In this document: piece after piece, positions 52,463-63,376 of the stretch
How the letters are laid out: the number at the start of each line of letters is the position of its first letter
Position numbering within the stretch: the first letter of the stretch is position 1
Source of the DNA: Variovorax ginsengisoli
GTDB taxonomy: Bacteria > Pseudomonadota > Gammaproteobacteria > Burkholderiales > Burkholderiaceae_C
Length of the DNA: 64,000 nucleotides
Direction: 5' to 3'
NCBI RefSeq assembly: GCF_030486595.1
Contig: NZ_JAUJZH010000004.1
Location: forward strand, 246,184-310,183
Notes under the pieces: generated by a model
Seen by the model: only the letters and a program-made list of their open reading frames with translations
Databases searched by the model: none
Told to the model about the DNA's origin: nothing
Program-made: the position numbers and the translations under genes

Positions 52463-52622
52463 TTGTTTTCTCCAAAAATGGAAGTCCTCTTCCGCCGCTG
52501 CCACTTCAATTGGCGACAGCGTTGGGCCGGCGACGAACGTTGGCCCACGAAAGAGGGTTGGTAAAGTTTCTGCACTCTGCTCCAACAAGCGCCAAGAAGA
52601 CGCAAGTTAGGCAGAGCCGAAG

Positions 52623-52652
52623 ATTATAGCCCGCGAACGGGAGAGGACGCAA
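52623..52652 (-). promoter_or_regulatory. Predicted promoter of the rplC-rpsQ operon
   Basis: On the minus strand TTGCGT (52647-52652) and a perfect TATAAT (52623-52628) are separated by 18 bases. Transcription would begin near 52616, giving a leader of about 150 bases before rplC. This is the promoter that lets the operon run without rpsJ. The leader has short inverted repeats but I did not find a convincing L4-type hairpin. Confidence 0.7.
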
Positions 52653-52679
52653 GAGGGGCCGGCGCAGGCCCCAGGCGCC

Positions 52680-53165
52680 CTACTTCACCTGCATCGGCAG
52701 GATCTTTTCGCCGTCGGTCGACTGCTTGAGCGCCCCGCTGGCCGGCATGGTGGCCGACGGCTTGCCCACGGACACCGGGATCGACGTGGCGCTGGTCGCA
52801 CCGCCCTGGGTCGTGAAGACGTTCAGGTAACCGATGCCAGTGGCGGCCGGCAACACCTCGACGGTCCAGGTGGTGGCCTGCCCCGCCGGCAGGCTGCGGG
52901 TGGTTTCGATGCCTGCGAGCGCCAGGCCGCCCTCGGTCGCGATCCGGACCGTGGCGCCAGCGGCGGCGATGCCGTCGAAGCCGAGCACCACCGCCACCGG
53001 ACGGCCGGCCTCGGGCGTGCCGTCGACCCGGTACTGGACCTGGACGCCGGATCCGTTGGACTTCATCGGCGCGGTGGTCATGGCCTTGCCGGCCGGACCG
53101 GCCGCGCTCGCGGCCAAAGGCAGGGCCAGCGCCAGGGCGCAGGCCAGGGCCGCTGCGGTTTTCAC
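52680..53165 (-). CDS. Small secreted protein downstream of the metallopeptidase
   Basis: A 161-residue exported protein. Its GTG start (53165) overlaps the metallopeptidase stop as GTGA and directly begins a clean Sec signal, 'VKTAAALACALALALPLAASAA'; an ATG seven codons earlier (53186) is the alternative. The mature part ('VQVQYRVDGTPEAGRPVAVVLGF' and 'GGLALAGIETTRSLPAGQATTW') looks like a single Ig-like or beta-sandwich domain with no cysteine. It is probably made and exported together with the metallopeptidase and might bind it or its product. No family recognised. Confidence 0.7.
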   Translation of the reverse strand: MKTAAALACALALALPLAASAAGPAGKAMTTAPMKSNGSGVQVQYRVDGTPEAGRPVAVVLGFDGIAAAGATVRIATEGGLALAGIETTRSLPAGQATTWTVEVLPAATGIGYLNVFTTQGGATSATSIPVSVGKPSATMPASGALKQSTDGEKILPMQVK

Positions 53166-54745
53166 TGGATGCTGACGTTGAAACATGTGTTGGCCGAGGA
53201 GTTGTTGTAGTCGTTGATCACCAGAACGTTGTCGCCGGCCGGCAGGCTGACCGACTTGGTCTCGCTGGCGCCGAATCCCTGGCTTTCGTCGACCTGGCGC
53301 CCGGCGTAGACCGCGAAATCCGGATCGGCAGCGGCCGGACCGGAGACCGTGATCGTGTGGGTTCCGGCGCTCGGCAATGAAAAGCGCAGGTAGACGTAGC
53401 TGCCGAGCTTGTTGCCGGTGCCCGCGGCGTTGGTGACGCAGGCCGGGGTCGAGCCGCCGACGGTGGCCGGCCGGTACATCGGCAGCACGCCGGCGACAGC
53501 GCCATCGTTCGTTTCGTTGACGCCGAAGGGATCGTTCGCGGCGGCGCTGATCTGCTCGCCGGACAGCAGGCCGGTCAGCACCGAGACGCTGCCCGGGGCC
53601 GCGAGCCCGAAGGCGGCAGTGAACGGATGGATCGAGGTGACGGCCACGCCGTTCTTGAACGCCGCGCTGGTCAGCGTGTCGTTGATCGGCTTGAAGCCGA
53701 CCTGGCTGTTCAGGCGCCAGAGGATCGAATGAACGGAGGCTTCGCGGAACCACCCGGGGCCGGCGACACCGCTGGCCGTCAGGTCGATGTTGGCGCCCTG
53801 CCCCTGGCCCTGGCCGACCGCATCGGTGTAGTTGTTGCGCGCCAGCGCGATGCCCGACCAGGCGTTGCCCCACCCTTCGGAGAAGGCCGCACGCCGGTCG
53901 AGCTTGTCGGTCAGGGCATGGCTGCCGCCCGGCGAGTCGTCGCGGCTGAAGGCCGACTGGTAGTAGTGCCCCCATTCATGGGCGATGACCGAGGCGTCGT
54001 ATTCGTCGGTATCGACGTTTTCCTTGCCCAGCACGTAGATGGCCCGGGCGCCGTTGCTCATCGTGAACGAGGTGGTGCCGATCTGCCCGAGTGCAGGATT
54101 GCCGACCGCCGGCACGTTGTTGGCACTCCAGTAGAGCTTCAGCGCCGGAAAGGAGGTGGCGGGCGCGACCGACAGCATCTTGGCCTGCGCCGCGTAGACG
54201 GTGTCGAGCACCGCGAACGGCGCGGCCACCCGGGTCGAGGCATAGCGGCTGCCGTCCCAGCCGGACGGCGCCTGGACGTCACGCGTGATGGCCGCGGTGC
54301 CAGTGGAGAACGCCGGCGTCTCGAGCGCGAAGATGGCATCGGACTGCGTGTTGTCGCGCACCGTCACATCCCAGGTGGCGCCCGACCCGCCCTGGGTCAT
54401 CTGCGCCTTGATGCGGACCAGCACCTGGATGCTTGCGGGCAGGCTGACCGAATAGGCGCCGTTGGCATCGGTCGTCGCAGTCGCGATCACCGCCGCGGAG
54501 GCGCCGTTGACGATCTCGACGCTGGCGCCGCGGATCGGCTTGGGCGCAGCCTGACCATAGGCCAACGCCCCATTGGGGTTGGGAATCGACACATAGGTCG
54601 CCGTGCCGCTCAGCGTGACCGTGCTCGCGGCTGGAAACCCGACGAAGCCTCCTCCGCCACCCCCACCACCACCACCACCACCGCAGGCCGCGAGCATCGC
54701 CACCGCCATCACTGCCACGCTTCGCCTTGCCCACACTGCCTGCAT
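53162..54745 (-). CDS. Putative zinc-metallopeptidase lipoprotein
   Basis: A 527-residue envelope protein. A lipoprotein signal ends at Cys21 ('VAMLAAC'), followed by 12 consecutive glycines (residues 22-33). A carboxypeptidase-like beta domain ('ASVEIVNGASAAVIATATTD' and 'ANGAYSVSLPAS', about 70-115) precedes the catalytic domain with 'VIAHEWGHYYQS' (His256, Glu257, His260) and 'AAFSEGWGN', whose Glu290 is a plausible third zinc ligand as in gluzincins. The C-terminal ~110 residues resemble a PPC-type secreted domain ('GTHTITVSGPAAADPDFAVY'). Substrate unknown. It is co-translated with the small secreted protein and lies 146 bases downstream of the response regulator gene. Confidence 0.75.
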   Translation of the reverse strand: MQAVWARRSVAVMAVAMLAACGGGGGGGGGGGGFVGFPAASTVTLSGTATYVSIPNPNGALAYGQAAPKPIRGASVEIVNGASAAVIATATTDANGAYSVSLPASIQVLVRIKAQMTQGGSGATWDVTVRDNTQSDAIFALETPAFSTGTAAITRDVQAPSGWDGSRYASTRVAAPFAVLDTVYAAQAKMLSVAPATSFPALKLYWSANNVPAVGNPALGQIGTTSFTMSNGARAIYVLGKENVDTDEYDASVIAHEWGHYYQSAFSRDDSPGGSHALTDKLDRRAAFSEGWGNAWSGIALARNNYTDAVGQGQGQGANIDLTASGVAGPGWFREASVHSILWRLNSQVGFKPINDTLTSAAFKNGVAVTSIHPFTAAFGLAAPGSVSVLTGLLSGEQISAAANDPFGVNETNDGAVAGVLPMYRPATVGGSTPACVTNAAGTGNKLGSYVYLRFSLPSAGTHTITVSGPAAADPDFAVYAGRQVDESQGFGASETKSVSLPAGDNVLVINDYNNSSANTCFNVSIQ

Positions 54746-62800: not shown

Positions 62801-63220
62801 CAGTCCGAGCGGGCGGCCGTCGCTGTCGTTCAGCGGAAAGGCGGCATACGAATCCATGCCCTTGGCCGCGAACATCGTGCCCGGGGGGAATTCGCGGGCG
62901 ACGCCGGAGGCGACGAAGCGAAAGGCCCGGCCGACCACCTGGGCGCACGGCGAGCCCTGCAGCGGATAGTCGAAGTTGCGCAGGATCTTTCCGTCGAGCA
63001 CGGCGGCCAGCGTGCGCAAGGTGCTCCGCGAGCCGTCGGTGAAGACCGCCACGAAGACGGTCGCCACGCCCAGGATCTGCGCCAGTTCCTGGACCAGCGC
63101 CGCCATGGTGCCCGGGCCATGGGCGCTGGCCACGGCCCGCGCGGCACGATACATCGCCTCGGCCGCGTCGGTCCACGCGGGGGTGTCGGTGGCGCGATGT
63201 CGGCGGTCCGGGGCAGCCAT
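59891..63220 (-). CDS. GAF/PAS hybrid sensor histidine kinase
   Basis: A 1109-residue soluble hybrid kinase with no membrane helix. Order: two GAF domains (about 20-180 and 190-340), three PAS domains with PAC segments (about 345-460, 470-590 and 600-720), HisKA with the phosphorylatable His734 ('IGQLTGGIAHDFNNILTSVI'), HATPase_c ('LFNLCINARDAI' and 'GRGSGMGLAMVHGIVHDHGG'), then a C-terminal receiver with Asp1033 ('LLITDQTMPQLDG'). The two GAFs are alike ('PLQGSPCAQVVGRAF' and 'PIQGTPCEHVLGQRF'), pointing to duplication. It should relay to a Hpt protein or response regulator elsewhere; the OmpR-type regulator 4 kb away is a candidate but not proven. Its ATG is 156 bases from the end of rpsJ. 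Confidence 0.9.
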   Translation of the reverse strand: MAAPDRRHRATDTPAWTDAAEAMYRAARAVASAHGPGTMAALVQELAQILGVATVFVAVFTDGSRSTLRTLAAVLDGKILRNFDYPLQGSPCAQVVGRAFRFVASGVAREFPPGTMFAAKGMDSYAAFPLNDSDGRPLGLLVAMDPRPIEDAVLAEALLKIFASRLIAEIERSSADEALRAAALAVSAASGRSVFAELARYLATILDVEMAFISRHQSDDDTTLHMLAMVSDGEVREGYRYPIQGTPCEHVLGQRFCVYPSNLHTLFALDQDDRLLGAEGYAGLPLNDAHGRPLGTIGIVSRHALTNIERIESMLRIFAGRAAAEIEQLGAREALQRSEASYRAIFEASEDAIFILDWTSGEILDANPKACEAYGCSRDELCRLSLADLRSGEAPYTAEQGLAHMQLAKLGRCPPFEWHRRSPDGALRWDEVRLKPAMIDGRHHVVAFTRDITERKEALAALGASEAQYRGIFNASADALVLRAANFAIVDANATYERMSGFRLSEVLGVDRVLANPPEIMATIRALHDQALAGEPVRLETELLRRDGERYDLELRGVPVLHRGEPHVLYIGRDMTQSKRAERALRNSEEQYRAIFNASADGLVVRDAGYRAVDVNPAYLAMSGYTRDEVLSATRVLTQPDPALQQRHRAQHADILAGRPVRFEVPGVRKDGSPFYLEVSGMPLTYRGEPHVLYAARDITQRKAAEAERERLEAQLRQAQKMEAIGQLTGGIAHDFNNILTSVIGYLVLGQERAETLGDARLQRQLGQAQLAAQRARELIAQMLAFARRQRGQRRTLALGPLVDQTLQLLRATLPASVSLDFVTPPAAGGDALLVAADAVQLEQVLFNLCINARDAITGSGWIRVRLGRRGGAWTCASCRAHVDTGHWVEVSVADSGGGIAPDLLERIFEPFTSSKEVGRGSGMGLAMVHGIVHDHGGHVLVETVPGAGSVFRVLLPPATGAAADAPGAPDLPATGEALCARVMVVDDEVMVGDFMVELLSGWGLEVVLQRSPLDALSWLEDSSQPLDLLITDQTMPQLDGLHLAQRANGLRPHLPVLLYTGNADGIDEAAARRHGVCGVLHKPIDNQALHALMKACLDKAHRGPCSGA

Positions 63221-63324
63221 GCCCGCAGTCTAGGCCGCCGCGGGCAGGCGCGCTGCGTCATTGCCTTGGCGATACCGCGCGGTTACATGGCGGATACGCG
63301 ATCACCCGGCGGGCACCCGAAATG

Positions 63325-63362
63325 AAAAAGGCCCGCCCACATTGCTGTGGGCGGGCCTTTTT
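63325..63362 (-). terminator. Strong terminator after rpsJ
   Basis: A perfect 16-base stem (AAAAAGGCCCGCCCAC with its complement) and a six-base loop, ending in five T on either strand, lies 14 bases past the rpsJ stop. It closes the tuf-rpsJ transcript and prevents it from reading into the hybrid kinase gene. Confidence 0.9.
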
Positions 63363-63376
63363 GCAGGGACAGGCTG

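Follow-up and report, generated by a model that had tools for sequence, protein, structure and literature searches.

The closest described counterparts of the locus reported here are insertions at the boundaries between ribosomal protein operons and the structured leader RNAs that precede ribosomal protein genes. In the main text of Brandis 2021, whose scope is Gammaproteobacteria and Bacilli and in which the word "betaproteobacteria" is absent, a few genes enter an inter-operon boundary and further rearrangement follows; 77 of 115 events are traced there to gene insertions, and the inserted genes studied (tusDCB, bfd-bfr, nrdHEF and ilv-leu) are without sign of distant donors. The S10 operon as usually defined starts at rpsJ (passages of PMC2704228). 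Here we analyse the rpsJ-rplC junction in a stretch of 64,000 nucleotides (the window), which is the final 64 kb of a 310,183-bp contig (C43) in a 7.8-Mb genome of the soil bacterium Variovorax (Comamonadaceae). In this window rpsJ and rplC are separated by 10,914 bp (52463-63376) that hold seven other genes. We consider it quite probable that the split arose by nested insertions at a pre-existing boundary, at which a promoter-like site and a leader preceded rplC, and that it is likely tolerated, with rpsJ predicted to be transcribed together with tuf and rplC-rpsQ predicted to form a separate unit. With the S10 operon starting at rpsJ, the str/S10 boundary of Brandis 2021 lies before that gene; the break described here lies after it and comprises two nested events and apparent losses. 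Two marks of a boundary insertion are found here: the two neighbours are close together in relatives and separated by added genes in this genome, and the flanking ribosomal protein genes are intact. That the site is also a boundary between transcription units is a prediction from promoter pattern and terminator-like hairpins. Insertion at an operon boundary of this ribosomal protein cluster is a known kind of event, and the leader RNA is what may be new.

The leader upstream of rplC shares with the S10 leader of Escherichia coli, which according to passages of PMC10931766 and PMC2704228 is bound by L4, that it is structured and heads nearly the same set of genes; it differs in position, since the E. 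coli leader precedes rpsJ and the hairpin described here lies downstream of rpsJ and upstream of rplC (the window ends inside tuf). The candidates of Eckert and Weinberg 2020 (PMC7247131) are likewise covarying leaders before ribosomal protein genes, one of them at rplC (L4, Archaeoglobi), but the words "Betaproteobacteria" and "Comamonadaceae" are absent from the main text, and the start of its Table 1 was compared. The Burkholderiales-1 motif of Weinberg 2010 (PMC2864571), also from the order considered here, is a candidate RNA with a low rating; the main text does not contain "rplC", and the motif may or may not equal the present leader. The main texts of transcription-start studies in Burkholderia cenocepacia (PMC4603805) and Cupriavidus (PMC7563307) mention neither rplC nor rpsJ, and titles, abstract openings and passages retrieved in a literature search held no account of this split or of a betaproteobacterial rplC leader.

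Gene order at the rpsJ-rplC junction

Read from rpsJ to rplC, the gap encodes a hybrid sensor histidine kinase, an oxidase of the FAD/BBE type, a protein weakly resembling AurF, one without a family assignment, an OmpR-type response regulator, a metalloprotease predicted to be secreted and a small secreted-looking protein, with five genes on the minus and two on the plus strand (Table 1). An earlier, sequence-only reading of the window had reported a separation of about 10.7 kb by seven unrelated genes on both strands, a strong terminator past rpsJ, a perfect TATAAT for rplC, intact ribosomal genes and the lack of the spc operon behind rpsQ. All of these points were borne out: a terminator-like hairpin with a GC-rich stem and a T run follows rpsJ, TATAAT is found at 52623-52628 with TTGCGT 18 bp upstream, rpsJ, rplC and the remaining frames up to rpsQ are whole (the names within rplC-rpsQ, other than the Pfam-confirmed rplC, we take from the translations), and a peroxiredoxin gene stands 3' of rpsQ in place of spc. 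A peroxiredoxin gene also follows rpsQ in all 16 further Variovorax loci and in five loci of other genera (in a sixth, L143, none is present within the 3.3 kb read), so that the missing spc operon is not peculiar to this genome; judged by gene order, the S10/spc split at rpsQ is wider and older than this genome. The contig end cuts tuf at the window edge and the sequence read ends there, with none further upstream of tuf.

A comparison of gene order among relatives, which the same reading had proposed, was made for 61 genomes (own, genus and order) and 200 genomes of the family. In the family 182 and 178 genomes gave a match, of which about 150 are among the matches listed; the counts for other genera refer to these, and the 123 genomes compared are those with both genes listed on one contig. 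In the lengths below the stop codon of rpsJ and the start codon of rplC are counted in, which adds 6 nt to the gap itself, and for other families the values are too high by another 6-12 nt wherever the match to rplC starts a few residues in. Of the 32 Variovorax genomes that have the two genes on a single contig, 28 have a gap of 2,429-2,584 bp, two a short one (242 bp in G034 and 280 bp in G001), and two a long one, namely 10,920 bp in the window and 11,023 bp in genome G023. In other genera of the family 120 of the 123 comparable gaps among the matches listed span 105-374 bp, with G257 (2,307 bp), G236 (2,463 bp) and G118 (907,555 bp) as exceptions. In other families of the order (by which we mean the GTDB Burkholderiales, which we take to be roughly the Betaproteobacteria) 22 of 23 gaps measure 31-252 bp, and that of G045 measures 15,336 bp. 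Absent from these counts are G125, G170, G173 and G247, in which the genes lie on separate contigs (G173 and G247 were read separately at rplC), G220, which has two rpsJ matches and the listed one on the other contig, and the second, Variovorax-like copy in G209. The gap of the window thus lies far outside the usual range, and because nearly all compared relatives outside Variovorax and Pseudacidovorax have short rpsJ-rplC gaps, the insertions are derived.

The content of the gap is best read, from its distribution, as two nested insertions, i.e. an old genus-level cassette of two genes (the metalloprotease and its small neighbour, next to rplC) and a recent block of five genes (next to rpsJ). 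Besides the window, 16 Variovorax loci were read whole: all 13 with a gap of 2.4-2.6 kb hold the metalloprotease and the small gene, G023 holds these two together with the five-gene block, and G001 and G034 hold neither. Among named genomes, the order rpsJ-metalloprotease-small gene-rplC occurs in 61 of the best 80 of 138 metalloprotease loci found; one further locus of these 80 (L178) equals G023, and the remaining 18, which include Rubrivivax, Ramlibacter, other metagenome-assembled genomes, a single strain of Pseudacidovorax and, in V. paradoxus MEDvA23, a second copy, have no rpsJ within the flank read. In six further genomes of the family the metalloprotease gene is at another location, in five on a contig without rpsJ and in the sixth (G199) with rpsJ not among the matches listed. 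In a tree built from 4.8 kb of the ribosomal DNA of 21 genomes, the Pseudacidovorax G236, which carries the metalloprotease in the gap, groups with Variovorax (support 100/100) and G257 falls outside, while Variovorax without G236 is weakly supported (81/69). G001 and G034 are nested inside the metalloprotease carriers and therefore most simply lost the gene. The five-gene block we read as having arrived on the branch that leads to the window and G023: cytb (part), GNAT, the metalloprotease and the small gene of the window are 91-95% identical in nucleotides to those of G023 and 80-87% to those of the sister genome G026.

The sequence-only reading had suggested an insertion or rearrangement into a highly conserved operon. 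An insertion it is, and a derived one, but the content points to two events of different age rather than one, and probably no working operon was broken mid-way.

The leader RNA upstream of rplC

Between the predicted promoter and rplC, the first ribosomal protein gene, we found a leader composed of a hairpin P1, a linker UUUAUYAACC and a long hairpin P3/P2 with the loop CAAUYG. In full the P2 loop reads C-A-A-U-Y-G-N-W, of which the core CAAU and the G two positions on are invariant in 66 aligned sequences. The loop motif occurs at 78 of 80 junctions (17/17 in Variovorax, 48/48 in other genera, 13/15 in other families of the order), and at least five of the six inner P2 pairs are formed at 75 of 80 (17, 45 and 13, in the same order). 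The P2 alignment holds 66 sequences (62 distinct), with 12 of the 78 hairpin rows, all near-identical Variovorax, left out. In this alignment 86.0% of the P2 cells are paired as compared to 62.2% after shuffling (0/500 shuffles reach the observed value); the rows were found by the loop motif and then chosen by the stem among several matches, which gives a mild bias toward pairing, and a slid control with 28-54% paired argues against this choice as the explanation of the pairing. The covariation score is 0.689 (0.266 shuffled, again 0/500), and all nine stem pairs have changed on both sides, a count reached by 2/500 shuffles. A covariance model of the hairpin (R1) finds P2 in the window with E 1e-6, the runner-up scoring 16.4 bits (E 0.12). 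Outside the order, in 60 genomes of the class chosen from 161 with a match, five hits have E < 0.01 and lie 29-44 nt upstream of the rplC start; L260 (E 0.18) and L304 (E 5.5) are doubtful, and the others are at chance level.

P1 and P3 were studied in 37 Comamonadaceae leaders chosen for the strict promoter pattern (defined below) and a length of at most 180 nt. P1 covaries (mean unbroken stem 6.3 bp, shuffled 4.0 with a maximum of 4.8); the row of the window itself gets a score of 0 in this simple stem test, although its fold does show P1. The outer stem P3 is paired in 95% of cells. Folded without constraints, the leader of the window forms P1 and P3/P2 (z = -5.7). No Rfam match above threshold covers the leader in the window or in 18 further loci. 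A weak match to DUF2815 RNA (L131 431-483, E 0.27, 27.9 bits as compared to a gathering score of 41.2), the only one in these loci, overlaps the rplC hairpin of L131, a locus from a different family within the order.

The leader is a candidate ribosomal protein regulator, apparently unnamed, and because the S10 leader of E. coli binds L4, this protein would be the obvious first candidate for its ligand. Tentatively, as a possibility somewhat less likely than not, we propose that P1, the linker and P3/P2 form a new autoregulatory class of ribosomal protein leaders of Betaproteobacteria, a feedback switch of the S10 operon placed behind rpsJ, which would free rpsJ to join tuf and make the rpsJ/rplC junction a repeated independent landing site.

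In the rRNA spacer of L318, CGGTCAATCGGC directly precedes a boxA-like TGTTCTTTAAAA, about 238 nt ahead of the start of 23S; it resembles the leader loop, which may be chance.

If rplC has its own control, this should persist wherever rplC is cut off from rpsJ. We read eight cases of a split junction (the window, G023, G236, G257, G045, G118, G173 and G247, in the last three of which the genes lie far apart or on different contigs; the count excludes G125, G170 and G220). All eight have the loop motif upstream of rplC, and the six inner P2 pairs are complete in 7/8, whereas G257 forms four of them. Five of the eight, namely the window, G023, G257, G045 and G173, also carry the strict promoter pattern.

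G257 (L104 2698-5004) has a different insert of 2.3 kb at the same junction, without the metalloprotease. G045 (L066 1664-16990), from another family of the order, has an independent insert of 15.3 kb, again upstream of promoter pattern and hairpin. In G118 (L140, L141), which belongs to the same family and is assembled in three contigs, some 0.9 Mb separate rpsJ from rplC, and the leader hairpin is kept at rplC.

The promoter-like site and the terminator-like hairpin

Using the strict pattern TTGNNN-N16-18-TATA[AC]T within 250 bp upstream of rplC, we found a promoter-like site in 16/17 Variovorax loci and at 34/46 uninterrupted junctions of other genera, compared to a mean of 0.06 and a maximum of 1 in dinucleotide shuffles. 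A terminator-like hairpin 3' of rpsJ is present in 13/17 Variovorax loci. Because a promoter-like site and a structured leader precede rplC also in relatives without any insertion, rpsJ/rplC was probably a boundary of transcription units in the family before genes entered it, and the prediction that rplC-rpsQ is a separately controlled unit is the reason why the split is likely tolerated. At six of the 34 promoter-bearing uninterrupted junctions (L080, L091, L094, L096, L098 and L106) the rplC promoter pattern lies inside a terminator-like hairpin, with the -35 TTG in the 5' arm and TATA[AC]T closing or trailing the 3' arm.

The metalloprotease cassette

The two genes next to rplC overlap by stop and start codon and are mostly adjacent: the small gene adjoins the metalloprotease gene in 14/14 metalloprotease-bearing loci read whole and in 74 of the best 80 (of 138) named loci. 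For these reasons the two proteins likely act together outside the cytoplasm. Residues H256, E257, H260 and E290 of the metalloprotease are invariant in 25 sequences. Its predicted structure (pLDDT 86.9) gives Foldseek matches to thermolysin and aureolysin that are modest (TM 0.52-0.59 by target, 0.33-0.37 by query), and its C-terminal domain resembles pre-peptidase C-terminal domains (top Foldseek row); other rows outside the thermolysin type consist largely of short alignments to beta-sandwiches and were left aside. With the M4 (thermolysin-type) metalloproteases it shares the HEXXH motif, the downstream Glu and, as far as the modest match goes, the fold, but unlike them it is matched by none of the curated peptidase models of Pfam and NCBIfam. 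A sequence search of the PDB found no relative at E < 0.1 and a single match at E 0.16. In V. paradoxus MEDvA23 (L230) a second protease pair, with no rpsJ in the flank read, has a relative of the AurF-like protein close by and perhaps one of the kinase as well.

The five-gene block

A DNA search of 61 Variovorax genomes, in which four candidate places were scored in each (scattered copies may escape it), found the complete block in the window and G023 only, in the same order and on the same strands. In G026 (contig C5) the regulator (87%) is followed 7.5 kb on by the AurF-like gene, the oxidase and the kinase (77-84%), and the fifth, family-less gene was not found at this copy. In G005 and G008 the oxidase and the kinase stand together at one site, and relatives of the regulator, the AurF-like protein and the kinase at another. 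The family-less protein of 472 amino acids has no Pfam or NCBIfam match, and the label "TPR-like" given to it comes from the appearance of its sequence alone. The AT-rich spacer upstream of the protease gene contains, by eye, an imperfect inverted repeat; positions 54760-54872, which make up most of the AT-rich stretch, have a 92% match in G023.

Table 1. Positions in the window of the features discussed, ordered from rpsQ side to tuf side (strand as annotated)
Feature	Position	Strand	Remarks
Peroxiredoxin gene	46777-47283		follows rpsQ
rplC-rplD-rplW-rplB-rpsS-rplV-rpsC-rplP-rpmC-rpsQ	47448..52462	-	ten open frames, all intact
rplC (L3)	51782..52462	-	intact; heads rplC-rpsQ; Pfam PF00297
Small hairpin pairing the GGAG ribosome-binding site of rplC	52470..52483	-	predicted, one sequence
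Leader, long hairpin P3/P2	52486..52556	-	fold
Leader, hairpin P2, loop CAAUUGAA	52496..52521	-	covarying 9-bp stem; 35.7 bits
Leader, hairpin P1	52575..52616	-	fold; near predicted 5' end of rplC transcript
Promoter-like site of rplC, TTGCGT-N18-TATAAT	52623..52652	-	sequence pattern
Small secreted-looking partner (cassette)	52680..53165	-	GTG start overlaps metalloprotease stop (GTGA)
Predicted secreted metalloprotease (cassette)	53162..54745	-	HEWGHY and E290
AT-rich spacer, 146 bp	54746..54891	.	37% GC; inner junction of the block
OmpR-type response regulator (block)	54892..55686	-	Pfam/NCBIfam; also in G023
472-amino acid protein, family-less (block)	55731..57149	+	same place in G023; not found at G026 copy
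AurF-like protein (block)	57180..58214	+	Pfam match below cut-off (E 4.3e-4, 20 bits vs 29.6)
FAD-binding/BBE oxidoreductase (block)	58266..59768	-	Pfam; also in G023 and G026
Hybrid sensor histidine kinase, GAF-PAS-PAS-PAS and receiver domain (block)	59891..63220	-	Pfam; same place in G023; elsewhere in G026
Terminator-like hairpin	63325..63362	-	14-bp GC-rich stem and T run; 3' of rpsJ
rpsJ (S10)	63377..63691	-	intact, 104 amino acids
tuf (EF-Tu), 3' part	63715..64000	-	truncated by contig end; 23 nt upstream of rpsJ

Proposed course of events and alternative explanations

Positions, gene content, distribution, promoter-like sequences and covariation are observations. We infer the order of events from presence and absence in relatives, and the separate transcription, the regulation by the leader and the relocation of the block are likewise our interpretation. 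A structured leader hairpin would have arisen between rpsJ and rplC in or before the ancestor of the order, and a strong promoter-like site, as seen in most genera of the family, would then have appeared upstream of the hairpin. In the ancestor of Variovorax and Pseudacidovorax the metalloprotease cassette would have entered upstream of this promoter, with a terminator-like hairpin closing rpsJ in most Variovorax read, and finally, in the lineage of the window and G023, the kinase/regulator/oxidase block would have inserted between rpsJ and this cassette.

A wrong join of the rpsJ and rplC ends to other DNA, which the sequence-only reading had named as a finding that would undo it, might be suspected from a draft contig that ends inside tuf. 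However, G023, a separate assembly, carries these seven genes in identical order and on identical strands (91-95% identity in amino acids), which makes misassembly very unlikely, to the point of being negligible; the intermediate gap in 28/32 Variovorax genomes, the cassette in every one of the 13 such loci read and its presence at the junction in 61 of the best 80 (of 138) named loci, several of them on multi-megabase contigs, speak against it too. That the block came by horizontal transfer, as a genomic island which a recombinase of its own integrated at rpsJ-rplC, would agree with the differing sites of its parts in different Variovorax and with the AT-rich spacer at the inner junction, yet we regard it as improbable. 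None of the seven gap genes encodes an integrase or transposase, no direct repeat of at least 8 nt is shared within about 200 bp of each junction (there is one inverted 8-mer only), and the GC content of the block (71.2%, as compared to 68.7% in the window) shows no clear shift, with just the 146-bp spacer, for which no plasmid match was found, deviating strongly. The divergence of the block from the G026 copy (77-87% nucleotide identity) is also like that of most ordinary neighbours (80-87%). As there is no recombinase, no direct repeat at the junctions and little difference in GC content, the block is likely relocated ordinary DNA of the genus, from within the genome or from a relative.

The role of the leader allows other views as well. 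Two strong promoters under shared global control might suffice, with the leader RNA playing no regulatory part; the promoter pattern is indeed widespread in the family, but compensatory changes at every stem pair combined with an invariant loop core in 66 sequences are unexpected from selection on a promoter alone, and we judge this explanation unlikely. The conserved hairpin could instead be an element of RNA processing or stability (e.g. an RNase site) rather than a regulator that binds a protein, which would suit a hairpin located between two genes with different predicted transcript heads and a P1 that looks, at the 5' end, like a stabilising hairpin. An invariant loop with a variable stem is more typical of a loop that is recognised than of a site for a double-strand cutter, and the combination of an invariant loop core with a freely changing stem makes this alternative somewhat unlikely in our view.

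Several observations weigh against nested insertion at an old boundary governed by its own promoter and leader. The strict promoter pattern is missing at 12/46 uninterrupted junctions of other genera, occurs in 4/14 and is absent from 10/14 junctions of other families of the order, and is absent from three of the split cases, G236, G118 and G247 (G118 and G247 have GATAAT at a similar position upstream of rplC). Only 8/34 promoter-bearing uninterrupted junctions have a terminator-like hairpin, which in 6 of the 8 overlaps the promoter; with so few of these hairpins, read-through from rpsJ may persist in uninterrupted relatives. Both promoter and terminator assignments are predictions from sequence patterns. 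The covariation of P3 is weak (90% paired in 20 distinct rows, shuffled 84% with a maximum of 91%), and the 23S locus of the same genome yielded no convincing mimic of the loop, as its best R1 match (E 0.54) has a different loop. Nor could a donor site of the block be traced: the flanks of the G026 copy scatter in the window's genome or have no match there. Finally, the peroxiredoxin gene of the window is closer to that of G026 (97.4%) than to that of G023 (94.9%), and the same holds for rplC-rpsQ (99.7% and 99.1%); with G026 nearest in ribosomal DNA and peroxiredoxin, a loss of the block in G026 would fit too.

Positions 47448-52459 are 99.7% identical to L063 (G026) while most neighbours are 80-87% identical, which may reflect either extreme constraint or recent recombination of the operon.

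Implications

The locus suggests a stepwise route by which a highly conserved gene order could be broken harmlessly, with a control RNA first, a promoter next and insertions last. A leader that is kept with or without an insertion would account for the tolerance of the split. If the operon has its control point behind rpsJ, the question arises of how S10 is balanced with the other ribosomal proteins. The leader provides a testable RNA before ten ribosomal protein genes across an order.

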